From: a virus
Virus record (IMG/VR): IMGVR_UViG_3300022934_000217
Coordinates: 1-22,322 of that record
Length of the DNA stretch: 22,322 nt
Direction: 5' to 3' (one strand)
The notes beneath the pieces are model-generated. The model did no database searches. It had not been told where the DNA came from and saw only the letters and a program-made list of their open reading frames with translations. Below are positions 1,184 to 19,050 of this stretch, piece by piece. Both the position numbers and the translations under genes were made by a program. Position 1 is the first letter of the stretch, and each line of letters opens with the position of its first letter.

Positions 1184-1449
1184 TGCCCGCTAAGAAGGAT
1201 AGCCGCCTCGAACGTGCTGGCGTCTCCGGCTACAACAAGCCGAAGCGCACGCCCAAGCACCCGACGAAATCGCACGTCGTTGTGGCGAAGGATGGCGATA
1301 AGGTAAAGACGATCCGCTTTGGCCAGCAGGGTGTCAGCGGCGACAAGAAAACTACGGCGCGCAGCAAGTCGTTTAAGGCGCGCCACGCGAAAAACATAGC
1401 CAAGGGCAAGATGTCCGCGGCGTATTGGGCAAACAAGGTGAAGTGGTGA
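1183..1449 (+). CDS. Small basic conserved phage protein (DUF6321-like)
   Basis: An 88-aa, strongly basic protein (many Lys/Arg). Recognisable blocks are DSRLERAGVSGYNKPKRTP near the start, KSHVVVAKDGDKVKTIRFGQ in the middle, and KSFKARHAKNIAKGKMSAAY followed by WANKVKW at the end. This order matches a small phage and prophage family that I recall as DUF6321. No function is established to my knowledge; the high charge would suit nucleic-acid or virion binding. The ATG overlaps the preceding TAA and the stop TGA overlaps the next ATG (TGATG at 1447-1451). It lies in a run of small genes ahead of the portal. Family recognition is from memory of the motif pattern only. Confidence 0.8.
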   Translation: MPAKKDSRLERAGVSGYNKPKRTPKHPTKSHVVVAKDGDKVKTIRFGQQGVSGDKKTTARSKSFKARHAKNIAKGKMSAAYWANKVKW

Positions 1450-1682
1450 TGAAAACAAAAATTCACGTAAACCAGCATGTTATCCGCTCTAATAAAAAGT
1501 TAGGCGAGGATAAGCCTACGCTGACTGTGAAGACGTATAAAAACAACACCTATGCCCACGAGGTCGAAATCGACGGGCCTAGCCGCGTTGTATATAGCCC
1601 AGACAAGCCACTTTCGTGCGGCGCGAAGGTGTGGATAGAGACAGAGGCTAAAGTTACGCCAATACTTAGAGAGATTGGGTGA
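1449..1682 (+). CDS. Conserved hypothetical phage protein (HVNQHVI / VEIDGPS family)
   Basis: A 77-aa protein. The start at ATG 1449 is preferred over the in-frame ATG at 1425, because 1449 forms a TGATG overlap with the upstream stop and the intervening codons overlap the conserved KVKW end of the previous gene. Motifs are KIHVNQHVIRSNKK at the N-terminus, then a run of likely beta strands, VKTYKNNTYAHEVEIDGPS, and KPLSCGAKVWIETEAKV. I recall very similar small proteins in many phages and prophages with no assigned role. One cysteine is present (PLSCGAK). The small beta-rich layout could be an OB- or SH3-like barrel, but that is speculation. Confidence 0.75.
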   Translation: MKTKIHVNQHVIRSNKKLGEDKPTLTVKTYKNNTYAHEVEIDGPSRVVYSPDKPLSCGAKVWIETEAKVTPILREIG

Positions 1683-1689
1683 AGTGGTG

Positions 1690-2310
1690 ATGGGTCTACT
1701 TGATGACATCATAAAGATGGCAGCTCGCGTTATGAGCCCGCAGGCAATAGATGAGGCTGTTTCCGTTGCGCGTAATCCTGCGAGCCGTGAAACTATTGCC
1801 GTGATTAGTCCAGACGATTTTATTAATTTAGCGCGCGAAGGTTATAGCAGCGAAAAAATGCGAAACCTCCCTATGCCAAATTTAGGTGATCCAAAGTGGA
1901 GCAGCATGCCATTCTTGCAGTTCACCAACGAAAATGGCGTCGGGCAAGTTATTGGCCATGAGGGCAGACATCGCGCTCGATATATGAGGCAACTTGGCAT
2001 GGATAGGATGCCGATTAGATTGCTTTCTAGCGGGGGCAGTGGGCCGGCTATTAGATGGGGTAAAGCGTCAGATGAGGGATTCGACTACATCGACCCATCT
2101 AAAATTCCGTCAGCTCTTATAAATGAAGACAAGACAAGAATTTATCGTATGCCTAATAGTGTGGTATACCCTGTACAAATACGTGAACGTGCAGACATCC
2201 CCGTTGGCGGTAAGCGATACAGGTACGTGAAGCCGATGACTGAAGCAGAACGTGAGTTTGAGAGAGAAATGAGCATCTTGGACGCAATAATTAGGGAATT
2301 TGAGCAATGA
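1690..2310 (+). CDS. ParB-like (polyvalent-protein type) domain protein with MGLLDDI leader
   Basis: The start at ATG 1690 (206 aa) is favoured over ATG 1675, because the peptide then opens MGLLDDIIKMAARVMSP, like its neighbours, and follows the previous stop by 7 bases. Residues about 1-15 are an amphipathic helix. The core has ISPDDFINLAREG, then SMPFLQF, then VIGHEGRHRARYMRQLGM and MPIRLL. This 'DDFL ... PFL.F ... V.GHEGRHRA ... G...MPIR' pattern is the ParB/sulfiredoxin-like fold found in phage polyvalent proteins; EGRHRA corresponds to the GERRxRA nucleotide-binding/catalytic box of ParB. ParB-like domains can be CTPases or nucleases; which applies here is not visible. The C-terminus is acidic and helical. 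The TGA overlaps the next ATG (ATGA). Confidence 0.7.
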   Translation: MGLLDDIIKMAARVMSPQAIDEAVSVARNPASRETIAVISPDDFINLAREGYSSEKMRNLPMPNLGDPKWSSMPFLQFTNENGVGQVIGHEGRHRARYMRQLGMDRMPIRLLSSGGSGPAIRWGKASDEGFDYIDPSKIPSALINEDKTRIYRMPNSVVYPVQIRERADIPVGGKRYRYVKPMTEAEREFEREMSILDAIIREFEQ

Positions 2311-3392
2311 ACTTACTTGATGACATTATAAGATTTGCTCTGCGTCAGCGTTACCCTGAAGTAACGCCACCGGTAATGAAGTTTGACAAGAAAAAGGGTA
2401 AAGAGTATCTGGCGAAGAGCGAGAGCCCAGAAGCTAAATCCGTAAAGAAACTACGCGACGCCACCCAGCGCCGTATTAATGCTGGCGACTACGACCCATA
2501 TTTTAACATCGCTGATCGTTTTAGCGTTGACCGTTCTAAGTATCCGGTTGCGTCGCAGCCAAATCAAACGCTGTCGGTTTTACCTGCAAAGCAGGAAACC
2601 ATCGATAAATACCGCAAGATTTATGGCGATCCGCAGGCAAAAAGAAACCTTCTTGAGGCATACGAAAAAGGCATCGATAGGCCAAATACATCCGACTGGT
2701 ATTTTATGGGCCAGCTTGAGAAAGCGTTTATTGATGAATATGGCGATGAGTTAGGCAGGAAAAAATTTGTGGAGATGTTTGCAGATCCAATGGCCGCATG
2801 GACTGGCGGCGCAGATCCGCAGGCCAACCTTTTGATGGCAGGGTTTGACAACTTCCGTAAAGCGCAAGGCGTTGGGTTGCCGGAAAATACGTTTGATTAT
2901 CCGTACCCGATCGGTGGTCGCTTTTTAGGTAACAACGCTAAAGCAGCATCCAAGATTGAAGGGGAAGGTGGTATCTCTCCAAAAACAAACCCGAAGCGTT
3001 TTAACTTCTCAACAAACTTCCAAGGTGCCGGAGATCGTGCAACAATGGATGAGCAGATGATGACCATTGGCTACAATATGCAGGTGCCAACGCCAAATAC
3101 ATATGGCGCTGTTGAAGAGGTCGCCATGGAGCTTGCTGACAAAAAAGGCGTCACGCCTATGAAGTTTCAGGAAGTCGTCTGGCATGGCGGAACTGGTAAA
3201 GAGGGTAAGCCTATGATCCAGTTTGTGAATGAGGCGATCGAACGCACCAGCGCTGTCACCGGTCTGCCGCCAAAGGATGTCGTGCGCATGATGGTTCGCG
3301 GGAGTATTCCAGTCTTTGGCGTAGGCGCCGCCGCCCCAATGACAAACGATATTCTTAATTACTTTTCAACGCTAGAGGGTGACGGTTCCTAA
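2307..3392 (+). CDS. Polyvalent-protein-associated helical domain protein (DUF7178-like) with MNLLDDI leader
   Basis: A 361-aa protein opening MNLLDDIIRFALRQRYPEV, nearly the same leader as the protein at 1690. The body (about 60-345) is mostly helical. Recognisable motifs are NFSTNFQGAG, then ATMDEQMMTIGY, then PTPNTYGAVEEVAMELADKK and GVTPMKFQEVVWHGGTGKEG. The order 'N.(Y/F)..N..G.....(T)xDxxM....G......PT...Y..(I/V)E......A...G.TP...Q...W' fits a domain I recall from large phage polyvalent proteins (DUF7178). Its biochemical role is unknown. C-terminally, KPMIQFVNEAIERTSAVTG resembles a second segment that follows this domain in such proteins. As a separate gene rather than part of a giant protein it is unusual. 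Start and stop both overlap neighbours (ATGA and TAATG). Confidence 0.6.
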   Translation: MNLLDDIIRFALRQRYPEVTPPVMKFDKKKGKEYLAKSESPEAKSVKKLRDATQRRINAGDYDPYFNIADRFSVDRSKYPVASQPNQTLSVLPAKQETIDKYRKIYGDPQAKRNLLEAYEKGIDRPNTSDWYFMGQLEKAFIDEYGDELGRKKFVEMFADPMAAWTGGADPQANLLMAGFDNFRKAQGVGLPENTFDYPYPIGGRFLGNNAKAASKIEGEGGISPKTNPKRFNFSTNFQGAGDRATMDEQMMTIGYNMQVPTPNTYGAVEEVAMELADKKGVTPMKFQEVVWHGGTGKEGKPMIQFVNEAIERTSAVTGLPPKDVVRMMVRGSIPVFGVGAAAPMTNDILNYFSTLEGDGS

Positions 3393-3961
3393 TGGCTAAC
3401 CCGTTAAAATACGCGCGCGGGATACTTGACTTGCTGCACTTCTCCGATGAAGTGCGCCCAGTCATCGATCCTATGAAGCATCTGACGAACCCGAATATTC
3501 GCGGTGCCGAGGCTTCACTTGCGCGTTCAAAGGTTAGAACGACGCCATTCCGGCAGGAGCCAAAAGAGTTTTACGACCCCTACCCGCCGCAAAGTTATTG
3601 GGCGTCTGAAGGGTATAAAAAAGAGCGCGGCTTAGGTGACGCGATCCACACGACGCGTAAACCGGTTGAGGGTTTCTACGACATCAGTCAGGATGCGGAT
3701 CGCTTTTTGCCATTAGCGATTGAAAAGGTTGATGATATATTGTCGACTAATAAGATAAACATCCCTGATGGCGAGAGATCTGACTTGATTATTTCTGAGG
3801 CTATGAATATGGCGAAAGCCGCAAAATACCTTGGGATGCAAAACCAAAAATACAGGCCAAATGTTTTCACGCAGTTTAACCCTGTTGTTCCGGAGTTTGT
3901 GAGGCCTCCGGAAGGTCAGTTTATGAGTATTCTCGATTATTTGGAAGGATTAGAGAAATGA
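3392..3961 (+). CDS. ART-like polyvalent-protein domain, stand-alone
   Basis: A 189-aa protein. After a short helix (MANPLKYARGILDL) it reads LLHFSDEVRPVIDP, then NPNIRGAEASLARSKVRTTP, then YDPYPPQ and ERGLGDAIHTTRKPVEGFYD. The order 'LHFS ... (L/I)DP ... GAE..(L/R)... R....(Y) ... GLG...(Y/H)......(L/F)YD' matches the compact domain in phage polyvalent proteins that is described as ADP-ribosyltransferase-like and sometimes misannotated as inorganic pyrophosphatase. If it is an ART it would modify host proteins using NAD; the catalytic residues cannot be fixed by eye. A helical C-terminal half (AEAMNMAKAAKYLG-type) follows. The ATG overlaps TAA upstream, and the stop overlaps the next ATG (ATGA at 3958-3961). 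Confidence 0.55.
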   Translation: MANPLKYARGILDLLHFSDEVRPVIDPMKHLTNPNIRGAEASLARSKVRTTPFRQEPKEFYDPYPPQSYWASEGYKKERGLGDAIHTTRKPVEGFYDISQDADRFLPLAIEKVDDILSTNKINIPDGERSDLIISEAMNMAKAAKYLGMQNQKYRPNVFTQFNPVVPEFVRPPEGQFMSILDYLEGLEK

Positions 3962-4119
3962 CGACACATGTTTATGAAACAGAAATGAATGACTTTGGAA
4001 GAGCTCTTTTAGAGACTAATCCAAACTTTAAAATTGAAATTCTTGAAACCTTGGGCGACGAGAATGACCTTTTGCCAACTTATAAAGTTCGAGTAACTGA
4101 AGAGAGGCCAGATGAGTGA
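3958..4119 (+). CDS. 53-aa hypothetical protein in the accessory island
   Basis: A short ORF with ATG at 3958 inside an ATGA overlap, ending at TGA 4117-4119 after overlapping the next ATG (4112) by 8 bases. The peptide begins MTTHVYETEMNDFGRALLET, then a hydrophobic/charged stretch FKIEILETLGDENDLLPTYK and VRVTEERPDE. It looks like a small alpha-beta protein, strongly acidic. No family recognised. Stop-start overlaps at both ends and the absence of any other gene in this 160-base interval support it. It could be an antidote or adaptor for the neighbouring effector-like proteins; that idea rests on position alone. Confidence 0.55.
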   Translation: MTTHVYETEMNDFGRALLETNPNFKIEILETLGDENDLLPTYKVRVTEERPDE

Positions 4120-5110
4120 CATATATTCTTTAATGGATCGCCGATTAAACTGGCGCACTGGCCCTGATGGCTCTTTGTATTATGGCGGACAAGAAGTCGC
4201 GCCTCCTCGCCCAAGTATAAGACCACGTCAGACCACTTTTAGTGAGAACATGGTGGATCTGTTTAGTAAAATTATTCCGCAGACATCAGCGGAAAATTTA
4301 TTTGGTGGAAGGCTATATCCGCAGGGTGACGCGTTGATGCGTTTCACTGGGTCTAGTGGTTTAGCTAATGTGACACCGGTCACTGCTGGTATGATGTCTG
4401 CTGGGCAAGCCGTGAAGGATGTATCACGCGGTGATTATGGGAGCGCGGCTGCAAATACCGCATTTAGCTTATTGGACGCTGTTGGCTCTGGTTCAGTGTT
4501 GAAAAATGCTTATAGATCGGCACGCCAATCTCCGGAGCTTGTAGAGTTAACGCAAAGCCCGCAAACTCGTGAATATTTCAGCGATATGCTCAAAGAGGCT
4601 CAAGATACGCAGGGGCCAATAGGATTGCAGGTCGATGTTTACCCTCCAGAAGGGTATAAGAACAAAGCGATGATAGCTTCACCATATGGCGATGCTGGGT
4701 TTGCTATAACGCCAGAGGGTGAGTTAATATCTCTTGTTAAAAATAAAAATTCAAAGATCAAAGGCTTTGCAGGTAAGGCCTTAAACTATGACAAAGAAAA
4801 CGGCGTTTTCTTGAACGCATTTGATACTGAATTAACGAAACTTTACGCGCAAAACGGTTTCCGTCCTGTTTCAAGAACATCGTTTGATGAAGACTTGTTT
4901 AGATCAGAAATTGGTGATGAGGCTGTCGATGCCTTTATGGCAGCAAACAAGAAGTTTAATGAAGGCAAACCGGACGTCGTGTTTATGGTAAGAGATCCGG
5001 ATTACCATGGCCCGTTTGCAAATCAATTCGGTGGACGTCGAACTGATTATATGAGCGCGCAAAATGACCTTTTGCGTGAAGTCGAGAGATTAGGGTATAA
5101 AAGCAGATGA
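4112..5110 (+). CDS. Polyvalent-type protein with C-terminal GNAT-like domain
   Basis: A 332-aa protein; AGAGAGG (4101-4107) sits 4 bases before ATG 4112. Three parts are visible. Residues 1-60 form a polar, proline-containing N-terminus. Residues about 70-130 form a Gly/Ala/Ser-rich helical stretch (VTAGMMSAGQAV, GDYGSAAANTAFSLLDAVGS) of the type in internal or ejected virion proteins. From about 165 to the end is a domain with GPIGLQVDVYPP, FAITPEGELISLVK, GFAGKALNYDKENGVFLNAF, LTKLYAQNGFRPVSRTSF and KPDVVFMVRD. The pattern 'hydrophobic strand, A...A...G...L..FD..L..(L)Y..(N/F)GF..V.R..F....PDVVFM' resembles the GNAT-like acetyltransferase domain in phage polyvalent proteins. Substrate unknown. 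The stop overlaps the next ATG (ATGA). Confidence 0.6.
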   Translation: MSDIYSLMDRRLNWRTGPDGSLYYGGQEVAPPRPSIRPRQTTFSENMVDLFSKIIPQTSAENLFGGRLYPQGDALMRFTGSSGLANVTPVTAGMMSAGQAVKDVSRGDYGSAAANTAFSLLDAVGSGSVLKNAYRSARQSPELVELTQSPQTREYFSDMLKEAQDTQGPIGLQVDVYPPEGYKNKAMIASPYGDAGFAITPEGELISLVKNKNSKIKGFAGKALNYDKENGVFLNAFDTELTKLYAQNGFRPVSRTSFDEDLFRSEIGDEAVDAFMAANKKFNEGKPDVVFMVRDPDYHGPFANQFGGRRTDYMSAQNDLLREVERLGYKSR

Positions 5111-5190
5111 CTATAATAAGAGACTTTCCGTCAAGAGTTGCGGCTGCGTTAAAGAAAAAAGCAGAGCAAGAGCAAAAAGGGTCTAAGTGA
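5107..5190 (+). CDS. 27-aa micro-protein upstream of the portal gene
   Basis: ATG at 5107 lies in an ATGA overlap with the previous gene, and its TGA (5188-5190) overlaps the portal ATG (TGATG). The peptide MTIIRDFPSRVAAALKKK continues with a charged tail, AEQEQKGSK: a short hydrophobic start followed by a basic amphipathic helix. It fills the whole space between two genes with overlaps at both ends, which is good evidence for translation or for translational coupling into the portal gene. No family is assigned. It sits at the border between the AT-richer accessory island and the GC-richer structural genes. Confidence 0.5.
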   Translation: MTIIRDFPSRVAAALKKKAEQEQKGSK

Positions 5191-7316
5191 TGGACTACGA
5201 AATCAACGAACTTGCGGCGCAAATCGAAGCCGAGCTAAACCCTGACCAGATGGACGACGCCGAGCTGCAGGGCATTGTCGGCAAGGAGATCGAGGACGCG
5301 ATCGACTACATCGACAACTGGATCTCGCCTGTCCGCGCCACCGCGACGCAATACTACCGCGGCGAGCCGTTTGGCAATGAGGAAGAGGGCCGCAGCCAAG
5401 TTGTGAGCATGGACGTGCGCGACACCGTGCAGGCGATCATGCCGTCGCTGATGCGTATTTTCCACAGCACCGAGCGCACCGTTGAATACGTGCCGCAAGG
5501 CCCAGAGGACGTTGAATCCGCCAAGCAGGCGTCCGAGTACGCCAACTACATCATCAATCGTGACAACAACGGCTTCCTGCACATGCACGCCGCGTTCAAG
5601 GACGCGCTGATCCGCAAGGCTGGCATACTGAAGTGCTACTGGGACGACCAGACGAAATTCGAGACGCACGACTTGACCGGCTTGGACGACACCGCGTTGT
5701 CTGCGTTGATGGCTGACCCTGATGCGCAAGTCGACATCGTCGCATCCGAGATGGTCGGCGAGCCACAGATTGACCCGATGACTGGCCAAATCGTACCACC
5801 GCCCGCCGTGCACGCCGTCCGCGTGACCTACGTGCACCCTGATGGGCGTGTTAAGCTGGAGGCCGTGCCGCCGGAAGAGTTCCTGATTTCACGCGAGGCA
5901 AAGTCACTTGAGGACAGCGACTACGTTGCACACCGACGCGTCGTGACCGTGTCTGAGCTCGTGGCAATGGGCTACGACTACGACGAGGTGTCTTCCCTCG
6001 CGTCCGCGTATGACGAGATGGAGACGAACGTCGAGCGCTACACGCGTAATAAGGCGCTGACCAACGAAATGAACGAGCGCTACGATCCGGCGATGAAGAA
6101 GGTGCTCTACGTCGAAAACTACATCAAAGTGGACTATGACGGCGACGGCATCGCGGAGCTGCGCAAAGTGTGCACCGCCGGTGACGGGAATACTATTCTG
6201 GCGAATGAGCCATGCGCGATGGTGCCGTTTGCGGTATTCTGCCCAGACCCCGAGGCGCACGACTTCTTCGGCATGTCGATCGCTGACACCGTCATGGACA
6301 TCCAGCGCATCAAGTCGTCGATCATGCGTAACACGCTAGACAGCTTGGCAATGTCAATCCACCCACGTATGGCGGTGACCGAGGGCATGGTTAACCTAGA
6401 GGACGTTTTATCAACTGAGACGGGCGCCATCATCCGCCAGCGTTCCGCCGGTCAGGTGCAGCCACTTGCAATGCCGTTCGTTGGCCAACAGGCATTTCCT
6501 GTCCTGCAATACATGGACGAGATCAAAGAGGCCCGCACAGGCATCTCAAAGGCGTCTGCAGGCTTGGATGCGGGTGCGCTGCAGTCATCGACCGCGGCAG
6601 CCGTTCAGGCGACTGTGAGCGCCGCTCAGCAGCACATTGAGCTGATTGCGCGTATCTTTGCGGAAACCGGAATGAAGCAGCTCTACAAGATTGTGCTGCA
6701 CTTAATCACAACGCATCAGGATCGCGCGCGTATGGTTCGCCTGACGAACGAGTTTGTGCCGATCGATCCGCGCGTCTGGGATGCGAATATGGACGTGACG
6801 ATCAACGTCGGACTTGGCCGCGGATCAGACAGTGAGCGCATGATGATGATGCGTCAGATCGGCGAGATGCAGAAGGAGGCCATCATGCAGATGGGGCCAG
6901 TTAATCCGCTGACAGACATGAATAAGCTAGCCAACACACTGAAGTCGATGACGGAGCTTGCGGGCTTCAAGGATGCGTCGCAATTCTGGTCAGACCCTGC
7001 GCAGTTCCAAGCGCCACCGCAGGAGGATAAACCGGATATCAACGAGCAGTTGATCGCCGTGCAGATCCAGCAGATCCAAGCGGACATCCAGAAAAAGGCA
7101 GCCGAGCTGCAGCTTGAGCGTGAGAAGATGATCATGGAAGACGATCGCAAGCGCGACGAGCTGGATGCGGAGCTATTCGTGAAGGCGGAAGAAATGAAGG
7201 CCAAGTATGGCACGCAGCTTAACGTGGAGCAGATCCGGTCTGAGCTGGCGATTAATCGGGAGGTGATGAAGGCGCAAGCCGACGTCATAAAGAGTGGAAT
7301 AGATGGTGAAGAGTAA
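5190..7316 (+). CDS. Portal protein (podovirus/SU10-type)
   Basis: A protein of about 708 aa that forms the dodecameric ring at the head vertex for DNA passage. ATG 5190 is chosen (TGATG overlap); an in-frame GTG at 5187 is also possible. AAAGGG lies about 8 bases upstream. Diagnostic blocks are an N-terminal helical region with YRGEPFGNEEEGRSQVVSMD, then VRDTVQAIMPSLMRIFHSTE, ANYIINRDNNGF, DYDGDGIAELRKV, and the portal core DFFGMSIADTVMDIQRIKSS with TLDSLAMSIHPRMAVTEG. Later, QSSTAAAVQATVSAAQQ marks the stem-loop region. Residues about 615-705 are a long charged coiled coil rich in Gln/Glu/Lys, a C-terminal barrel-like extension. Length fits podovirus portals (600-750 aa). It overlaps the next gene by 14 bases, heading the head-assembly block. 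Confidence 0.9.
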   Translation: MDYEINELAAQIEAELNPDQMDDAELQGIVGKEIEDAIDYIDNWISPVRATATQYYRGEPFGNEEEGRSQVVSMDVRDTVQAIMPSLMRIFHSTERTVEYVPQGPEDVESAKQASEYANYIINRDNNGFLHMHAAFKDALIRKAGILKCYWDDQTKFETHDLTGLDDTALSALMADPDAQVDIVASEMVGEPQIDPMTGQIVPPPAVHAVRVTYVHPDGRVKLEAVPPEEFLISREAKSLEDSDYVAHRRVVTVSELVAMGYDYDEVSSLASAYDEMETNVERYTRNKALTNEMNERYDPAMKKVLYVENYIKVDYDGDGIAELRKVCTAGDGNTILANEPCAMVPFAVFCPDPEAHDFFGMSIADTVMDIQRIKSSIMRNTLDSLAMSIHPRMAVTEGMVNLEDVLSTETGAIIRQRSAGQVQPLAMPFVGQQAFPVLQYMDEIKEARTGISKASAGLDAGALQSSTAAAVQATVSAAQQHIELIARIFAETGMKQLYKIVLHLITTHQDRARMVRLTNEFVPIDPRVWDANMDVTINVGLGRGSDSERMMMMRQIGEMQKEAIMQMGPVNPLTDMNKLANTLKSMTELAGFKDASQFWSDPAQFQAPPQEDKPDINEQLIAVQIQQIQADIQKKAAELQLEREKMIMEDDRKRDELDAELFVKAEEMKAKYGTQLNVEQIRSELAINREVMKAQADVIKSGIDGEE

Positions 7317-10847: not shown

Positions 10848-13355
10848 ATGCCTATTATTTCGCCGTTGGCCTCAGTTAGAAGCGCGCTATTGTCAGCCAC
10901 CGCGTTTAACACTTTTAACGCATATGCTGTTCAGTACCTCAGTCCGGAGGTCGTAGCTGACTTTACAAAAGAAAAGTACAGCGGCGTTGGCGCAAGCAGC
11001 TTCGACACCCTGTTTGACTACACATCTGAAAACAGCACTGCGACTATGGTTGACAGTGATGGCAAGATGAAGTGGGCGCCGCATAACGTCTTAAAAGATT
11101 CCAATGATTTTTCTAGCTCAACTTGGAACAACAAGCCTGATGTTGTGTTGACAGCAAATGCAACGACTGCGCCCGATGGAACAAACACTGGCTGGAAAAT
11201 GACCAACGATGCTACCAATGCATTCTTGGGTCAGGGGTTTTCTTGGCGGCCTCGTTACAATGATTATAAGTTTACTGTTTTCTGTAAGTATTTCGACAAC
11301 CAGTGGGTTCGTCTTATGGAAAATGATACTACACGAGCAGTTTGGTTTGACATTCAGAATGGTGTAGTCGGTACAAATGGCAGTAATGTGACTAGCTCTT
11401 CAATCGAAGATGTAGGCAGTGGTTGGTATAAATGTTCTTTTGAAGTTTACGACAGCTTTTCTTTGCCACAGTTCTTTATTATTGCGGCTGATGGCGATGG
11501 CTCATCAACTGAAACAGATGGTAACTCTATCTACATCTGGGGTGCACATGCCCATATCAGTAGTCTTGGCGGTATGGTTGATAACCCAGATGAACCTGTA
11601 TCGTATCTAAAGTCTTACATTCCAACAGGCTCTAGCACACCAACAAGTAAGCCTCGCCGCAATCACCATGCATACAATGGATACTCTTGGGTTAATCAAG
11701 GGATTCTAATTGAGAGCAAGGATCAGCGTACTAACCTGATTTATCCTAGTAATGATATTGATACCTCTGGTGATTGGGGACAAAACGGAACTAATCGTAC
11801 AAATAATTCATATACTGGGCCAGACGGTGAACTATCTCTGATAAAATTAACAGCTAATACAAATAATGTTTCACACCACGTTGGATTTACTTACACATCA
11901 ACAGATGACCCAATGACTGCCTCTTGTTTTGGTCGTGCTATTGATGGAAGCACAATAAATCACTTTGGCATTCGCTTCCATGAAGCATCTAATAACAATG
12001 CGGCAGTTTACTTTTCTTTAGAAGATGGTGTTGTAACCAAAGTTTTTGAGGGTTCATCATTTGGTGGTACAATCCATAATTACGGCGTAGAAGATTGGGG
12101 CGGTGGCCTCTTTAGGTTCTGGGTAACCGTTGGGGGCATTACAGGAACCCAAGTTCGATTTATTATGGCACCTGATGGTGACCCAACTAACGACTCTGGA
12201 TGGAATGCAAGTGGTGCTTTCTCAGCGTTTGCTGGTGCTAATGACGACACAACTGCAATAGCACTTGGTTTCTTCCAGCTGGAAAAAACAGAAGCATCTG
12301 GGGATATTCCTTATCCTTCTTCTTATTTACCAACAATCTCTGGCACAGTATCTCGTGGAGAAGAAACTCTTAGCGTAGACCATGTGAAGCTAGGGCCATA
12401 TCCAACGTCTACACTAACAGGCTCTAATTTAATCAGTGGTGATCCTGATGATTGGACTGTTACTTTTGGTTCTAACGGAATAACAGCAGCGGGTAATGGA
12501 TTTGACATTGTTGATAACGATAGTGTGCTTTATGCAGAGCAAGCTATAACTACCGTTGCAAATACTACTTATGAGATTAGTGTAAAACTTGTTGGTGACT
12601 TATCAACAAATGCCCGCATATGGGCAGGGACTACAACGTCACTCAGCCAAGATGTAACTGCGTTCCAAGAGGAAGCTACTGTAATTAAAGACAGCTACGA
12701 TGGCATTTTAAAAGGTTACTTTACCGCACAAGGCACGACGACTTACATTACCGTTAGCACAAATGACGACTCTGGTGGATTCAGAGATTTTAATGTGCAA
12801 GAGGTAACTGACGTTGGAATGGCTTTTGACTTGAAGGGTAGCTTCAGCTCAACTGACAATGGACGCACTCGTGAGACTGTATTCCTAGAACGCAACCAAG
12901 TTGAAGCTGGTCAAGCTAATGATGAACACTTCCAGTTGTTTATGTCTACAGCGGCTGCTGATACTGGACAGCTATTTGCTCAGAAAGTTGTTGATGGTGT
13001 GGGCAGTGCTCAGTCTTTAACAAGCGCAGCATTTCTTGCCACGCCACAGATCAATCTGCCAATATCCATTGCGGGTATTAACAAGGTTGATTTGCTAAGA
13101 CTTGGAAGATACGGCGGTGCTCAATCTTCTGCAACAACATCATTGATGCCTAGCATTCTGTACTCAAAATTTAATGTGGCACCTATCTTTGACGGCACAA
13201 TCTCTCAAGTAAGATACTTCCGCAATGCGCCTGATGATTTTACTGCGACTTGGCTAACAGATGCAACGAAACCTTCAGAAGAGCCTAGCATGTCCCTTAC
13301 CTTCGAGGCGGTTGATGATCGCAGCTTTGTTGATACTGGTTGGAGAGTTTACTAA
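10848..13355 (+). CDS. Large tail fibre with repeated carbohydrate-binding-like modules
   Basis: 835 aa, with only a weak ribosome site. Domains: residues 1-75, attachment region ending in the common entry motif SENSTATMVDSDGKMKWAPH; about 78-260, module 1 (NVLKDSNDFSSSTWNN, VWFDIQNGVVG, IEDVGSGWYKCSFEVYD, IYIWGAHAHIS, SYIPTGSS); about 290-500, module 2 (NLIYPSNDIDTSGDWG, VYFSLEDGVVTKVF, FFQLEKTEASG, SYLPTISGTVSRGEET); about 525-655, a third jelly-roll-like segment (NLISGDPDDWTVTFG, YEISVKLVGDLSTNA); about 658-835, a concanavalin/laminin-G-like domain ending FDGTISQVRYFRNAPDD. The repeat motifs are those of carbohydrate-binding phage fibres. The gene is AT-richer than the head genes and is paralogous to the next gene. 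TAATG overlap at its end. Confidence 0.8.
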   Translation: MPIISPLASVRSALLSATAFNTFNAYAVQYLSPEVVADFTKEKYSGVGASSFDTLFDYTSENSTATMVDSDGKMKWAPHNVLKDSNDFSSSTWNNKPDVVLTANATTAPDGTNTGWKMTNDATNAFLGQGFSWRPRYNDYKFTVFCKYFDNQWVRLMENDTTRAVWFDIQNGVVGTNGSNVTSSSIEDVGSGWYKCSFEVYDSFSLPQFFIIAADGDGSSTETDGNSIYIWGAHAHISSLGGMVDNPDEPVSYLKSYIPTGSSTPTSKPRRNHHAYNGYSWVNQGILIESKDQRTNLIYPSNDIDTSGDWGQNGTNRTNNSYTGPDGELSLIKLTANTNNVSHHVGFTYTSTDDPMTASCFGRAIDGSTINHFGIRFHEASNNNAAVYFSLEDGVVTKVFEGSSFGGTIHNYGVEDWGGGLFRFWVTVGGITGTQVRFIMAPDGDPTNDSGWNASGAFSAFAGANDDTTAIALGFFQLEKTEASGDIPYPSSYLPTISGTVSRGEETLSVDHVKLGPYPTSTLTGSNLISGDPDDWTVTFGSNGITAAGNGFDIVDNDSVLYAEQAITTVANTTYEISVKLVGDLSTNARIWAGTTTSLSQDVTAFQEEATVIKDSYDGILKGYFTAQGTTTYITVSTNDDSGGFRDFNVQEVTDVGMAFDLKGSFSSTDNGRTRETVFLERNQVEAGQANDEHFQLFMSTAAADTGQLFAQKVVDGVGSAQSLTSAAFLATPQINLPISIAGINKVDLLRLGRYGGAQSSATTSLMPSILYSKFNVAPIFDGTISQVRYFRNAPDDFTATWLTDATKPSEEPSMSLTFEAVDDRSFVDTGWRVY
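11342..11434 (+). repeat. Fibre module repeat, copy 1
   Basis: A 21-base block at 11342-11362 (encoding WFDIQNG and flanks) and a 15-base block at 11420-11434 (GWYK and flanks) are identical to blocks at 13708-13728 and 13786-13800. The spacing of 78 bases between block starts is the same in both copies. The sequence between them has diverged. Confidence 0.75.
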
Positions 13356-15178
13356 TGGCAAAAACGTACAACAACTTTGCTGATATTATTACCTTCAGCC
13401 GTGGATCGAATGCTACGGTCAGGGATTCCGATGGTTACATCAAGTGGGCAGGGCATAATATTCTAGATAATTCTGAGGATTTTTCTAACTGGACTGCGAC
13501 AGCAACGACTGTTGTCAGCAACGATGCAACTGCACCTGATGGTACAGAAACAGCAGACAAGCTAACATCAACGTCAACAAGCCAAGTATTGGTTGGTGAT
13601 TACAGCAGCAATGTGTCAATAACATGGCAGTACAAACACAGCATATATTTGAAATATATTGACCATCAGTGGATTCGTTTGCAGGTGCATAACAGTAATG
13701 GCAATGCTTGGTTTGACATTCAGAATGGCGTTACGGGTAGCACTGGACCGCTAGTTGATTCTGTTGATATAGAGGATGTTGGTAATGGTTGGTATAAATG
13801 CACTGTCGAGGCAACTATTGATGGTGTTTCTTCTTATACCTTTAATATAGCTTTTGCTTCTACTGACAATTCTACGTTTGAAGCAAATGGTGCTTCAGTT
13901 CATGTTTGGGGTGCGCATGTTTACAACTGCCAATACCTAGACATGGTGCAGAACCCAGCCAATACTTGGACAGGTGGCGGCAGCTATTACAAGACAGGAA
14001 CGTCTGGCGGTTACTTTGCCCCTCGCATTGAGCATGATCCCGATGGCAATGTTAAAGGGCTTCTCATTGAGGAAGAACGTGAGAACCTGCGTGGGTATTA
14101 TACAATAGATTTTGAGAGAAGTGGTACTGAGGACATTGTAAACGACTCATCAATGTTAAGTCCTGCTGGAAAGAATGACGCTACTTTTTTCTATGAAAAT
14201 GCTTCGAATGCTTATCACAGATATAGAACAATTAATTTAGTAGAAGACCCACTTGGCACTTATAAAACCGCACAATCTATTTATGCAAAAGAAAATACTG
14301 ATCACGCAAAGCGTTACCTTATTGTGACTCCTGCTGGTCAAGGTGTGAATAACTATGCAGTCTTTGATTTATCTGGTGATGGTTCTGTTACTGAAACTGG
14401 ATCAGATATGGATTATGCTTACATAGAAAAAGCAGGGAATGGTTGGTATCGCTGCACTGTTGCGACTAATGGTGATGGTACACCTACTGTTGGTATTATT
14501 CTTAGCATTTCTGACACATCAACACCAAGTGAATATCAACCTGTTTATACAGGAAACGGTCAATCAGGTTTTTGGCTATGGGCCTATCAGTGTGAAAGCA
14601 TCCATAATTCTGCCAGTGTTGCAAGACATACAAATGTATCGACTTCATACATCCCAACGATAGGTGGCACTGCCTACACTCGCAGCATTGATGATGTTCA
14701 AGTTAACGCAAGCGATTTAGGTTATAACTTAAAAGAAGGTACGTTTTATTTTGAAGTGTACAAGCCTCAAGCAAGTGAGGCAGGTTATAACACTATCTTC
14801 CATGCAGGTGATGGCGGCACGGATGATCGCATTTGGATCAATTTAGACTTTGCTCGTAAGGTAAGGTTTGATGTTAAGGTTGATGCTACACTTCAATTAG
14901 ACCCACTACAAAGTACACCTCTTACTTTTGACGGAACTATAGCTAAAATTGCTGTGGCTTATAAAAAAGATGATTTTGCTATGTCTGTTAATGGTGCAAC
15001 CGCTATTACAGATACATCGGGATCACTTGATACTCTTTACTTACATGATCTATTTACGATTGGTCGGTATAGAAACACAACAAATAGTGGTGCGTATCCT
15101 TACAATGGTACAATCAAAAACATCAAATACTATCCTCGTCGCCTAACTGACGATCAACTAGAGGACTTAACATCATGA
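13355..15178 (+). CDS. Second tail fibre, paralogue of the preceding fibre
   Basis: 607 aa from ATG 13355 (TAATG overlap), chosen over an in-frame TTG at 13340. MAKTYNNFADIITFSRGSNA with TVRDSDGYIKWAGHNILDNS mirrors the entry motif of the first fibre. Module 1 (about 35-190) has EDFSNWTATA, WFDIQNGVTGS, IEDVGNGWYKCTVEA, VHVWGAHVYN. Module 2 (about 242-440) has YAYIEKAGNGWYRCTVA, FWLWAYQCES, SYIPTIGGTAYTR. A C-terminal laminin-G-like domain (about 455-607) has LKEGTFYFEVYKPQ, KIAVAYKKDDFAMSVNG, LFTIGRYRNT and IKNIKYYPRRLTDDQLEDL, the classic end of such lectin domains. It lacks most of the N-terminal attachment region of its neighbour, so it may bind that protein. The stop overlaps the next ATG. 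Confidence 0.8.
   Translation: MAKTYNNFADIITFSRGSNATVRDSDGYIKWAGHNILDNSEDFSNWTATATTVVSNDATAPDGTETADKLTSTSTSQVLVGDYSSNVSITWQYKHSIYLKYIDHQWIRLQVHNSNGNAWFDIQNGVTGSTGPLVDSVDIEDVGNGWYKCTVEATIDGVSSYTFNIAFASTDNSTFEANGASVHVWGAHVYNCQYLDMVQNPANTWTGGGSYYKTGTSGGYFAPRIEHDPDGNVKGLLIEEERENLRGYYTIDFERSGTEDIVNDSSMLSPAGKNDATFFYENASNAYHRYRTINLVEDPLGTYKTAQSIYAKENTDHAKRYLIVTPAGQGVNNYAVFDLSGDGSVTETGSDMDYAYIEKAGNGWYRCTVATNGDGTPTVGIILSISDTSTPSEYQPVYTGNGQSGFWLWAYQCESIHNSASVARHTNVSTSYIPTIGGTAYTRSIDDVQVNASDLGYNLKEGTFYFEVYKPQASEAGYNTIFHAGDGGTDDRIWINLDFARKVRFDVKVDATLQLDPLQSTPLTFDGTIAKIAVAYKKDDFAMSVNGATAITDTSGSLDTLYLHDLFTIGRYRNTTNSGAYPYNGTIKNIKYYPRRLTDDQLEDLTS
13708..13800 (+). repeat. Fibre module repeat, copy 2
   Basis: The second copy of the repeat described at 11342-11434, in the downstream fibre gene. 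A looser third match to the GWY block (AATGGTTGGTAT) occurs at about 14438-14449 in the second module of the same gene. Confidence 0.75.
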
Positions 15179-15546
15179 GTGATGAAGTAGACACAGGCCC
15201 AGTAATCAAGAATGCTTTTTACTTGAAGTTCGCTGATGAAGCCGAAATGCAAACGCAACTGGCTGCATTTTATCACGATGTGGTTATTGATGAAGATGCC
15301 AACACAACTGAAAGCCAACTGAATCGTCACGGTGATGGCTATGCGATACGAGTGATTGGCACAATGTATGCGCCGACAGGTAACACTTTGACAGACGATG
15401 AAGGCTTTGATTATCCTGAGAAAGCAGCGGTGGCTGGTTGGCATGTTAATGTAAAGCTGACGAACGACACACATCGCACGGCGTTTGAAACATTAGATAC
15501 TAACTATGGCGTGACACCTGCTACGCCTAAGCATGGATGGTTATAA
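15175..15546 (+). CDS. Small fibre-associated protein, possible fibre accessory or chaperone
   Basis: A 123-aa acidic protein, starting within ATGA and ending within TAATG. Visible pieces are NAFYLKFADEAEMQTQLAAF, then RVIGTMYAPTGNTLTDDEGF, YPEKAAVAGWHVNVKL and TPATPKHGWL. The ending 'G...P......GWHVN(V/L)' is one I associate with small proteins beside phage fibre genes in several genomes, without a proven role. It separates the two paralogous fibres from the third fibre, so a chaperone or accessory-subunit role is plausible. Function is inference from position. Confidence 0.6.
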   Translation: MSDEVDTGPVIKNAFYLKFADEAEMQTQLAAFYHDVVIDEDANTTESQLNRHGDGYAIRVIGTMYAPTGNTLTDDEGFDYPEKAAVAGWHVNVKLTNDTHRTAFETLDTNYGVTPATPKHGWL

Positions 15547-16478
15547 TGGCAATTACAATTACACGCCCTACAGTTGGTGGATCAGCAGATATTTGGGGTG
15601 ATACACTTAATACTGGGTTAGAGGCCATTGAAAGTACGCTTAACGGCACTGGCACTGGTAAGGTAAGAATTGAGCCTGACTTAACGTCTGGCTCTTGGTC
15701 TATTAGCGGTACTGCTGTCACAGCAACAGCGGCAGAATTGAACATTCTGGATGGTGTTACGTCTACTGCGACAGAGTTGAGTATCGTAGATGGCGACACA
15801 GCGGCCACGGCTACGACTTTAGTCGATGCTGATCGCGTTGTTGTAAATGACGGCGGCACGATGGTGCAAGTCGCTATGACTGATCTGGTGACATACTTTA
15901 ACGCAAACACTGCGGTTACATCTTCTGGTGCATTAGACAGCGGAAGTATTACATCAGGCTTTGGCGCGATTGACAACGGCTCATCCAACATCACGACAAC
16001 TGGCACAATATCGTTTGGTACGCTGACAGATGGCACAACGAGCGTTACTGCTATTTTGGATGAAGATGACATGACATCCGACAGCGCTACTGCGGTTCCT
16101 ACGCAACAAAGCGTTAAGGCATATGTGGATGATAACGGAATAACGCAAACATCTGGCACTGCACCGTATCTTGCGGCTAGGGCTTTTGTTTATGTTGAAG
16201 ATGGTAGTGATGCGGCAAATACTTATTACGGGCAAAACATTGCGTCTGTCGTAAGAAATTCCACTGGCGACTATACAATAACATTTACCACAGCAATGCC
16301 TGATGCGAACTATGCAATAGCTATGGGGCCAAATTCTCAAGGAAGTGCAAATGGCTCTTACGGAATGAGTTTTGGTTTTGAGGCCAAGTCTGCAGGTTCA
16401 TTTAGAGTTCAGGCAAGACGGACAACAAACCACGACATTTTTGAGGCAGCTCAGTTTAGCTTCATTATCTTTGCTTAG
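15546..16478 (+). CDS. Third tail fibre with TATAAELNILDGVT-type repeats
   Basis: 310 aa from ATG 15546 (TAATG overlap), preferred over the in-frame ATG at 15537. The N-terminus MAITITRPTVGGSADIWGDT plus LNTGLEAIESTLNGTG is a common phage fibre attachment start. Then come TATAAELNILDGVTSTATEL and SIVDGDTAATATTL, low-complexity beta-helical fibre repeats frequent in marine phages, followed by a Ser/Thr/Gly-rich shaft and the linker DDMTSDSATAVPTQQSVKAY. Residues about 205-310 form a compact tip: AFVYVEDGSDA, SVVRNSTGDYTITFTTAMPD, ANYAIAMGP, FRVQARRTTNHDIFEAAQFS. The 'TGDYT(I/V)(T/N)FTTAMPDANYA' signature is a widespread fibre-tip domain, probably contacting the receptor. No cysteines are seen. 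Confidence 0.75.
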   Translation: MAITITRPTVGGSADIWGDTLNTGLEAIESTLNGTGTGKVRIEPDLTSGSWSISGTAVTATAAELNILDGVTSTATELSIVDGDTAATATTLVDADRVVVNDGGTMVQVAMTDLVTYFNANTAVTSSGALDSGSITSGFGAIDNGSSNITTTGTISFGTLTDGTTSVTAILDEDDMTSDSATAVPTQQSVKAYVDDNGITQTSGTAPYLAARAFVYVEDGSDAANTYYGQNIASVVRNSTGDYTITFTTAMPDANYAIAMGPNSQGSANGSYGMSFGFEAKSAGSFRVQARRTTNHDIFEAAQFSFIIFA

Positions 16479-16495: not shown

Positions 16496-18391
16496 ATGAC
16501 GCTCATACCGCTAGACATCCCCGCAGGCTTTTACCGCAATGGCACTGACCTAGAGCAGGCGGGTCGCTGGCGTGATGGATCGCTCGTGCGCTGGCGTGAC
16601 AACAGCCTGCGTCCAGTTGGCGGTTGGCAGGAGCGCAAAACATCGTTTTGCACAAATGTCGTGCGCGGGATGCATGCGTGGGAATCTTTAGATGGCACCT
16701 CAAGATTAGCTGGTGGCTCACATAGTGAACTTATCGCCATGACAGGTGATGGCACGCTAACAGACATTACACCGACTAACCTTGCATCTGGTCGTGAAGA
16801 TGCTGCGGTTGAAACAGGTTACGGCTATGGCTCTTATGGTCGTGGCTTTTATGGAACGCCTCGACAGCAACTTGCCAACTCTGTTCCAGTAGAGGCTACA
16901 ACTTGGTCTTTAGACAACTGGGGCGAATACCTTGTGGCTTGCCACTATGATGATGGTAGAATTTTGGAATGGACGCTTGGTGCGGGTACAGAAATAGTCC
17001 AGAACGGCAACTTTAGCAGCAACGGAGCAAACTGGACATACAATGCGTCAGCTTGGACTTTTGTTGTAAGTGGTGGTGGTAATACTTATGCGCAGCACAG
17101 TAACACTAGTGCTACAGGGCCACTATCTCAGGATGGTATGACATTAAAAAAAGATGCTATTTATGAAGTAAAACTTACGCTTGCTGGCAACTCTTCTAAT
17201 GTAGCCATTAAGGTTGGAGTAGATATTGGTGGTGGGTCTGAGGTTTTGTTTTTGGACGAAAGTGAAAACACTCAGGGTAATTTTACTTACAATATGATTC
17301 CGACACAGGACACAACTGTTGGTGAAATATCAATAGAAAATGATGATGCCTTTGATTCATACACAGTTGATGATGTATCAATAAGATTAAAAAATGTTGC
17401 GCAGCCCTTACTTGGTGCACCTACAAATAATCTTGGATTAGTTGTAACTGAAGAGCGGTTTATTTTTGCACTTGCTGCAGGCGGCAATCCACGTAAAGTT
17501 CAGTGGTGTGATTATGAAGACAACACAACGTGGACACCTGCGAGCACAAACCAAGCCGGCGACATTGAGCTGCAGACTGCGGGCCAGATTATGCAGGGCA
17601 TCCGCACACGCGGCCAGACGCTGATCATCACAGACACAGACGCGCACACAGCGCGTTACACCGGCCCGCCCTTTGTATATGCCTTTGAGCGTGTCGGCAC
17701 GGCGTGTGGTGCTGTCTCCCGTAAGAGCGCAGTGGACACGGATGCGGGTACATTCTGGATGGGCCAGCGCGCGTTCTTCCGGTTTAATGGTAACTCTGTG
17801 CAGGAAGTGCCATGCGATGTGCACGACTATGTCTTTGGTGACATGAACACCGCGCAGCAATCTAAAATATGGGGCTTTGCAAACGGCCAGTATGGCGAGA
17901 TCTGGTGGTTCTACTGTTCAGGCGATAGCACGGAAATCAATCGCTACGTGGCATATGATTACAAGGAAGGCCACTGGCTGATTGGCAACTTATCACGTAC
18001 ATCCGGCGTTCAGCGCGGCGTATTCCGCTACCCCTTCATGGCGGGCCACGACGCCGACAGCGACATCTATGAGCATGAGGTCGGCTTAAACGTCGAGAGC
18101 GCGAGCGTGTTTGCTGAGACTGGCCCTATTATGATGGGTGCCGGTGAGCAAATCGGACGCGTCACGGATCTCATTCCCGACGAAAAGACACAGGGCGACG
18201 TTAACGTCACATTCAAGACACGCTTTTACCCGAATGCGGCTGAAACTACTCACGGGCCATTCACGCCAACAAATCCAACGTCAGTTCGCTTCTCTGGCCG
18301 CCAGATGCGCATGCGCGTCGAGGGCGCAAAGCTCGCTGACTGGCGTGTTGGCAACATGCGCATCGACGTGAAGGCTGGAGGTAAGCGTTAA
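16496..18391 (+). CDS. Conserved tail structural protein with an inserted carbohydrate-binding-like domain
   Basis: 631 aa; AAGGGGAA lies about 9 bases before the ATG. Residues 1-164 (IPLDIPAGFYRNGTDLEQAG, GSLVRWRDNSLRPVGGW, DNWGEYLVACHYDDGRILEW) and 302-631 (GAPTNNLGLVVTEERFIFAL, GGNPRKVQWCDYEDNTTWTP, IRTRGQTLIITDTDAHTARY, CGAVSRKSAVDTDAGTFWMG, DRYVAYDYKEGHW-like NRYVAYDYKEGHWLIG) match a conserved phage tail or hub-like protein, possibly beta-propeller, that I know without a firm function. Residues about 165-301 (IVQNGNFSSNGANWTYNAS to FDSYTVDDVSIRLKN) form a jelly-roll, carbohydrate-binding-like domain that interrupts this family. That stretch is AT-richer than its flanks. Removing it leaves about 494 aa. 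TAATG joins the next gene. Confidence 0.7.
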   Translation: MTLIPLDIPAGFYRNGTDLEQAGRWRDGSLVRWRDNSLRPVGGWQERKTSFCTNVVRGMHAWESLDGTSRLAGGSHSELIAMTGDGTLTDITPTNLASGREDAAVETGYGYGSYGRGFYGTPRQQLANSVPVEATTWSLDNWGEYLVACHYDDGRILEWTLGAGTEIVQNGNFSSNGANWTYNASAWTFVVSGGGNTYAQHSNTSATGPLSQDGMTLKKDAIYEVKLTLAGNSSNVAIKVGVDIGGGSEVLFLDESENTQGNFTYNMIPTQDTTVGEISIENDDAFDSYTVDDVSIRLKNVAQPLLGAPTNNLGLVVTEERFIFALAAGGNPRKVQWCDYEDNTTWTPASTNQAGDIELQTAGQIMQGIRTRGQTLIITDTDAHTARYTGPPFVYAFERVGTACGAVSRKSAVDTDAGTFWMGQRAFFRFNGNSVQEVPCDVHDYVFGDMNTAQQSKIWGFANGQYGEIWWFYCSGDSTEINRYVAYDYKEGHWLIGNLSRTSGVQRGVFRYPFMAGHDADSDIYEHEVGLNVESASVFAETGPIMMGAGEQIGRVTDLIPDEKTQGDVNVTFKTRFYPNAAETTHGPFTPTNPTSVRFSGRQMRMRVEGAKLADWRVGNMRIDVKAGGKR

Positions 18392-19050
18392 TGCCTTCTC
18401 CGATCCTCCCACCACTTGGCCCAGACTGGAAGCAGTGGGGGCGCCAGTTGACGCAGTACCTGCAGCGCAACTTATCTAATTTAGGATTCAAGACAGACGA
18501 CGATAACCCGTCAGAAAACGGCGTCATCTTGTGGGACAACGTGAACAAGTATCCCGTCGTATCCAAAGACGGCGAGTTCGTGCAAATCATATTGGAAGAT
18601 GGCCACGCATCGCTTTACCGCACGACAGACGTTACTGCGGCTGCGGTCAATACGGCTTATGCGATCCAGTATGACGCGCCATCAGGCAACAGCGGGATTA
18701 CGCTAGACGGCACAGACCCGACGAAGATCGTGTTTGCAGAAGCTGGCGAGTACCTTGTGCTGTTCTCAGCGCAGATTTCGTCAACGTCATCTAGCACGGT
18801 GAAGTTTTACTTCTGGCCCCGCCTAAACGGAACAGACGCAGCCAACAATACAATCATCTACGCGCTACACCAAAACGACGCCACGCAGGTCGTGTCACGC
18901 GGCGCTAAGTTTGACGTAAGTGCTGGCGATTATCTGCAGGTTATGTGGGCGGTGGACAGCACGTCTGGATACTTAGACGCATCGGCAGCGACAGCGTTTA
19001 GCCCAGCCGCGCCTGCAACGACATTACACCTAACGAGGATGCATGGCTAA
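18391..19050 (+). CDS. Virion structural protein with jelly-roll-like C-terminal domain
   Basis: A 219-aa protein. The N-terminus MPSPILPPLGPDWKQWGRQL, then TQYLQRNLSNLGFKT, is a short helical attachment region. Next is ENGVILWDNVNKYPVVSKDG with EFVQIILEDGHASLY, a pattern I recall in phage structural proteins paired with the upstream tail protein. Residues about 75-219 look like a C1q/TNF-type beta jelly roll: AYAIQYDAPSGNSGITLDG, KIVFAEAGEYLVLFSAQISS, VKFYFWPRLNG, AKFDVSAGDYLQVMWAVDS. It is likely part of the tail or a short spike. The ATG overlaps the upstream TAA. Confidence 0.65.
   Translation: MPSPILPPLGPDWKQWGRQLTQYLQRNLSNLGFKTDDDNPSENGVILWDNVNKYPVVSKDGEFVQIILEDGHASLYRTTDVTAAAVNTAYAIQYDAPSGNSGITLDGTDPTKIVFAEAGEYLVLFSAQISSTSSSTVKFYFWPRLNGTDAANNTIIYALHQNDATQVVSRGAKFDVSAGDYLQVMWAVDSTSGYLDASAATAFSPAAPATTLHLTRMHG

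Follow-up and report, generated by a model that had tools for sequence, protein, structure and literature searches.

The window, by which we mean the whole 22,322-base IMG/VR virus fragment analysed here, encodes an SU10-type portal protein, a series of tail fibre genes and, directly downstream of the last of these, a conserved tail protein within which a second domain is embedded (Table 1). Two adjacent fibre genes overlap slightly and are paralogous, aligning over 474 positions with 32 % identity (E 2e-44), which suggests that they arose by tandem duplication followed by divergence. A gene with an N-terminus like that of the third fibre gene is also found upstream of the corresponding tail protein in two relatives, L058 and L184. 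The gene that follows encodes 219 residues with a weak likeness (E 0.017) to BclA_C, a C1q/TNF-like jelly roll, and its product is possibly a further small protein of adhesion or decoration; L079 and L184 have a 218-residue gene in the equivalent place.

Table 1. Coordinates of the features discussed, in the window and in related records
Record	Feature	Coordinates	Strand	Basis or remark
Window	Portal protein, SU10_portal Pfam family	5187..7316	+	E 1e-210
Window	Tail protein/fibre, phrog_5939	10848..13355	+	Paralogue of the gene at 13340..15178
Window	Tail protein/fibre, phrog_5939, low GC	13340..15178	+	phrog_5939 is the family with the module in other phages
Window	Tail fibre gene (phrog_3484, phrog_11355)	15537..16478	+	Directly upstream of the nozzle gene
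Window	Tail nozzle protein with inserted module	16496..18391	+	631 aa; phrog_3287, PDB nozzle profile matches, model fold
Window	N-terminal backbone, residues 1-159	16496..16972	+	Aligns to insert-free homologues; probably platform part and blades 1-2, from strand count
Window	CBM-like jelly-roll module (type A), residues 160-303	16973..17404	+	Pfam CBM_4_9, module profile, model, 12-16 aa linker of homologues
Window	C-terminal backbone, residues 304-631	17405..18388	+	85.9 % identical to insert-free L013/L016-L018; probably blades 3-7 and platform, from strand count
Window	219-aa gene right after the nozzle gene	18391-19050		Weak BclA_C likeness
L058	Fibre gene directly upstream of the nozzle	2588-3520		Compared with L184
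L184	Fibre gene directly upstream of the nozzle	2970-4004		Compared with L058
L263	Nozzle with split C-type module	1998-5063		About 1,030 aa
L264	Nozzle with split C-type module	2456-5575		About 1,030 aa
L266	Nozzle with split C-type module	2531-5629		About 1,030 aa
L267	Nozzle with split C-type module	2126-5236		About 1,030 aa
L301 (HTVC023P)	Nozzle with post-DITP insert	1532-3667		
L302 (CRP-902)	Nozzle with post-DITP insert	1310-3433		
L303	Nozzle with post-DITP insert	1763-3631		
L304	Nozzle with post-DITP insert	1673-3571		
L306	Nozzle with post-DITP insert	1247-3523		

The carrier protein, which the first-pass annotation had described as a housekeeping virion part, can now be named. It matches phrog_3287 (E 1.8e-83), and a profile built from 60 sequences of its family finds the nozzles of Pseudomonas phage Pa223 (PDB 9nwi_Y, E 1e-20) and Vibrio phage VP1 (8zkk_O, E 4e-13). 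An AlphaFold2 model of the full-length protein (mean pLDDT 75.9) contains seven four-stranded units and is aligned by VIA-align to the Pa223 nozzle with a Z score of 30.3 over 455 residues, and to SU10 gp17, the VP1 nozzle and P22 gp10 with Z scores of 28.6, 28.2 and 26.4 respectively. Because both its profile matches and its modelled fold lead to solved nozzles, we identify the protein as a podovirus tail nozzle, predicted to consist of a platform and a seven-bladed beta-propeller. The short nozzles of Pa223 and VP1 (PDB 9nwi and 8zkk) are its closest solved relatives by sequence and by fold; at 513-521 aa they have about the length of the insert-free homologues described below, which leaves no space for a domain as large as that in the window.

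That domain had been proposed to be a sugar-binding-like jelly roll at residues 165-301 (16988-17398), and the motifs on which the proposal drew, DDGRILEW, GNFSSNGANWTYNAS, VDDVSIRLKN and GAPTNNLGLVV, are all present in the ORF as given. The placement stands, with the slightly wider boundaries of Table 1; the core as matched by profile spans residues 164-298. Pfam CBM_4_9 matches the isolated domain with an E value of 1.3e-5 and 26.0 bits, against a cut-off of 25.9, and scores 22.6 bits, under that cut-off, within the whole nozzle protein. The structure prediction that the first-pass annotation had called for was made for the isolated module together with 39 relatives (model m7bc4280c6514; mean pLDDT 75.7, pTM 0.71); over the insert, the full-length nozzle model reaches a pLDDT of only about 25-66, and the orientation that it gives to the insert is unreliable. 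The top Foldseek matches of the module model are CBM16 2zey (E 1.4e-4) and CBM22 4xuo (E 2.6e-4), and VIA-align finds CBM22, CBM16 and CBM4 structures at Z scores of 11-12, with CBM22 4xup at 12.3 over 140 residues. On this model the insert is a jelly roll like those of CBM22, CBM16 and CBM4. It has the jelly-roll fold in common with CBM_4_9, CBM22 and CBM16 modules, and a profile match that is significant but weak, lying at the Pfam cut-off; it is only 13-19 % identical to the solved CBMs and is carried by a phage nozzle rather than by a glycoside hydrolase. Jelly-roll folds of the CBM kind are found in non-sugar proteins too, and Eph receptor ligand-binding and insecticidal-toxin domains also match the module model with Z scores of 10-12; the insert is a putative sugar-binding domain.

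In relatives retrieved from IMG/VR, both flanks of residues 160-303 align, and no more than a linker of 12-16 residues stands between them. The complete sequences are of two lengths: 486-511 aa where there is no insert and 629-642 aa where the same loop has one. The homologues of 486-511 aa cross the junction without the insert, as had been anticipated. The proposal was to fall if every homologue had the domain at this site with matching composition, but most of the retrieved homologues are without it, the searches being ranked by similarity to the query so that such counts are not frequency estimates; at least 599 nozzle loci in IMG/VR gave a match. The essential claim, that a domain resembling a carbohydrate-binding module (CBM) lies inside a conserved tail protein, is borne out by the fold model and by the insert-free homologues. 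The nearest insert-free backbones (L013, L016-L018, L083 and L094) are 81-87 % identical to the window protein.

Four types of insert occupy this loop, namely A (the window), B (L001-L004, L012), C (L005-L011, L058, L152-L175 and others) and D (L189), and there is in addition a nested form. The type A and type C inserts are 28 % identical and have a motif skeleton in common, and type D is matched by the module profile; type B is not, and is unalignable with the other types. The type B insert gave no Pfam match above the cut-off and no match in phage records that would point to a donor. In the nested form (L263-L267) additional modules, several hundred residues in all, interrupt the C-type module, and in four of these nozzles (Table 1) the splitting material comprises repeat modules and a plastocyanin-like domain with a His ... 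Cys-x-x-His-x-x-x-Met-like spacing. In L264 and L266 another plastocyanin-like domain is inserted near the end of the propeller, probably in the region of the SU10 fibre-dock loop and the T7 fibre dock. The match of these domains to Pfam Copper-bind reaches only E 0.042. Phage nozzles are also encoded on contigs binned as a Flavobacteriaceae MAG (L307, NZAX01000047.1) and a Euryarchaeota MAG (L308, PAJM01000045.1); the binning is probably phage contamination, since L308 and the IMG/VR virus record L267 have the same length (29,798).

We also considered whether HTVC023P, CRP-902, DSL-LC04, MinM2 and ct7L0027 carry the same insertion and rejected it, their inserts starting after a DITP motif about 60 residues upstream and having no module match. 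The nozzles of cultured and other named relatives are 622-758 aa long, with unrelated beta-rich inserts after the DITP motif (Table 1), and an annotated chitinase gene lies near the nozzle gene in CRP-902 and ct7L0027.

When presence of the insert is mapped on a backbone tree built with the insert columns removed, five changes are counted, at least four of them forced by well-supported branches, and the insert types are scattered across backbone lineages. As reconstructed on this tree, related marine phages have taken different modules into one nozzle loop independently, and have done so several times. It could be argued instead that the family had the domain from the beginning and lost it many times over without repeated gain, since type C is found in L058 as well as in a clade of its own, and inserts at a neighbouring site are present in more distant isolates. 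A single gain, however, requires 25 losses against six changes in all once the nested forms are included, and the insert types diverge strongly by lineage, so that we regard common ancestry of the insert as very improbable.

Exchange at this loop can be seen on comparing L058, which has a type C insert, with L183, which has none: their nozzle flanks are 94.1 and 95.8 % identical at the DNA level and enclose 412 nt and 13 nt respectively, in frame. Recent acquisition of the module, as had been suggested, is therefore shown for this sister case but not for the window, where the nearest insert-free backbones share only 86-87 % protein identity. In this near-isogenic pair, compared for the purpose as L058 and L184, the fibre gene that immediately precedes the nozzle gene has kept its N-terminus and last residues while the middle and tip have been replaced, so that fibre tip and nozzle insert differ together, in this one pair. 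The type C inserts have a median dN/dS of 0.094, against 0.062-0.068 for the backbone, which indicates that they are under purifying selection. The window insert itself is known from one record only, and on that account one might suspect an artefact of assembly, or an insertion that is neutral or selfish; these are nevertheless poor explanations, to which we give hardly any weight, for an insert that is in frame and has whole-domain boundaries, at a site where many independent contigs carry inserts, one type of them under purifying selection.

Low GC content had been among the grounds for proposing transfer, and the values then given, 38 % at 17161-17220 and 60 % at 17581-17640, are exact (38.3 and 60.0 %). 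The whole insert, with a GC of 40.0 % and a GC3 of 29.9 %, is more representative than these two 60-base stretches; the N- and C-terminal parts of the nozzle have GC/GC3 values of 52.6/45.3 and 55.1/60.1. Compared with same-length segments from the other coding sequence of the window, the insert falls within the lowest 2.6 % in GC and only within the lowest 11 % in GC3, the reason being the fibre genes at 10848-16478, which are just as AT-rich (GC 40.7-46.2, GC3 30.6-39.8). In GC3 the insert lies far lower than the backbone both in the window (29.9 and 45-60) and in L058 (31.7 and 57-59), but the gap is smaller in the type C clade and there is hardly any in type B. We have therefore rejected low GC as sole evidence of recent transfer, given that neighbouring fibre genes are alike in composition and that type B inserts are near backbone GC3; the composition fits an origin among fibre modules and gives no date for the event.

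Relatives of the module were sought elsewhere and were found at profile level in the tail proteins of other phages. With these proteins alone as its source, a profile finds the window insert with an E value of 8e-10, computed with the search space set at 1000 sequences. The module family is present in phrog_5939 and other tail proteins (L269, L274, L275, L276, L278, L282, L285 and L298) and in tail fibre J of Rhodobacter phage RcapMu, that is, in fibre and tail proteins rather than in the propeller loop of a nozzle. Eight of the ten module-bearing donors tested match tail-class PHROG families better than 1e-20, most of them phrog_5939, and of the other two, L272 matches a tail-class PHROG at 1e-9 and L294 matches none. 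The idea that the insert was drawn from the same pool as the fibre modules upstream is thus supported at the level of the family, but neither of the two phrog_5939 fibre genes of the window contains a detectable copy, and the window's own fibre genes were rejected as direct donor. No close copy of the window insert turned up by tblastn in phage records, by peptide patterns in IMG/VR or by DNA comparison with the loci retrieved up to that search, and its junctions had no exact match.

By strand count in the nozzle model, the insert is preceded by two four-stranded blades and followed by five, and the insertion site is for this reason likely to be the opening of the propeller between its second and third blades. 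The nozzle domains of SU10 are inserted between blades 2 and 3 (PMC9509320), and in T7 the loop or opening at blade 3 runs to the tip of the nozzle (PMC6702177); by analogy with these two phages, six copies of the module are most likely displayed at the distal end of the tail. SU10 gp17 resembles the window nozzle in its fold and in having extra domains in the propeller, and the window encodes an SU10-type portal as well. In SU10, however, four Ig-like domains form an extended nozzle, whereas the window has one exchangeable CBM-like module that is absent in near relatives, and the model of this module matches CBM jelly rolls rather than Ig-like domains.

The comparison with SU10 raises the alternative that the insert is structural, bracing neighbouring nozzle subunits or docking a fibre without binding any host sugar. 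In SU10 the nozzle domains inserted at the equivalent opening do touch neighbouring nozzles and short fibres (PMC9509320), and a joint change of insert and upstream fibre gene, as seen between L058 and L184, is to be expected if nozzle and fibre must match. We consider a structural role unlikely, in that the insert is absent from closely related backbones, unrelated module types share one loop, which would be odd for a conserved brace, and the module family is CBM-like. Less likely again is that the module binds environmental polysaccharide, such as mucus, marine gels or algal glycans, and holds the phage on host-bearing particles with no part in host recognition; its closest folds are indeed CBMs for plant or microbial polysaccharides, environmental collections are the source of the contigs and a marine phage is their nearest isolate, but a place on the nozzle at the tail end, not on the capsid, favours, if indirectly, a role at the host surface.

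Our preferred reading, which we hold to be rather probable, is that of an 'evolved nozzle', in which a swappable glycan-binding cassette at the distal tail opening would aid adsorption. Six copies of the insert would ring the host-facing end of the tail and bind cell-surface or capsular polysaccharide, adding a weak multivalent contact, or orienting the particle, after fibre binding and before the nozzle opens; as host surfaces change, the modules would be swapped by recombination from the tail-fibre module pool. The closest parallel in logic is the evolved Dit (evoDit) of lactococcal skunaviruses and other siphophages of Gram-positive hosts, a conserved tail hub protein that occurs in long and short forms, the long form having an internal CBM insertion between N- and C-terminal parts that can be aligned to the classical form; its inserts, which vary, promote adsorption, and a CBM-bearing evolved Dit broadens host range when moved into phages without it (PMC10688798). 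The window nozzle likewise has an internal CBM-like insertion with flanks that align to an insert-free form. It differs in that the carrier has the nozzle propeller fold and is not a distal tail protein, and whereas the function of evoDit has been tested, the role proposed for the nozzle module follows from analogy. That a tail-tube protein can influence host range is illustrated by Acinetobacter phage Hep4, in which one residue change in tail tubular protein B expands the host range (PMC10904470).

Exchangeable adhesion modules on a conserved tail part are of a known kind; here they are found on a podovirus nozzle. A search of mainly open-access literature found no description of CBM insertions in nozzle proteins. 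The host range of short-tailed phages is usually credited to fibres and spikes, and our findings suggest that the nozzle too, beside the tail fibres, is a site at which these viruses refit their grip on the host. More tentatively, and at somewhat less than even chances, the nozzle may serve as a second receptor-binding platform throughout a large and widespread group of marine podoviruses, defined loops of its propeller docking exchangeable modules, glycan-binding ones among them, that are drawn from the tail-fibre pool; adaptation to the host could then proceed through the DNA-gate protein. The natural near-isogenic pair L058 and L183, with and without the cassette, allows a clean test. If the preferred reading is correct, a swappable CBM-like cassette would make the nozzle a second adhesion device, which would help to explain why tail-tube proteins sometimes set host range, and the principle of the evolved Dit would extend from siphophages of Gram-positive bacteria to marine podoviruses.
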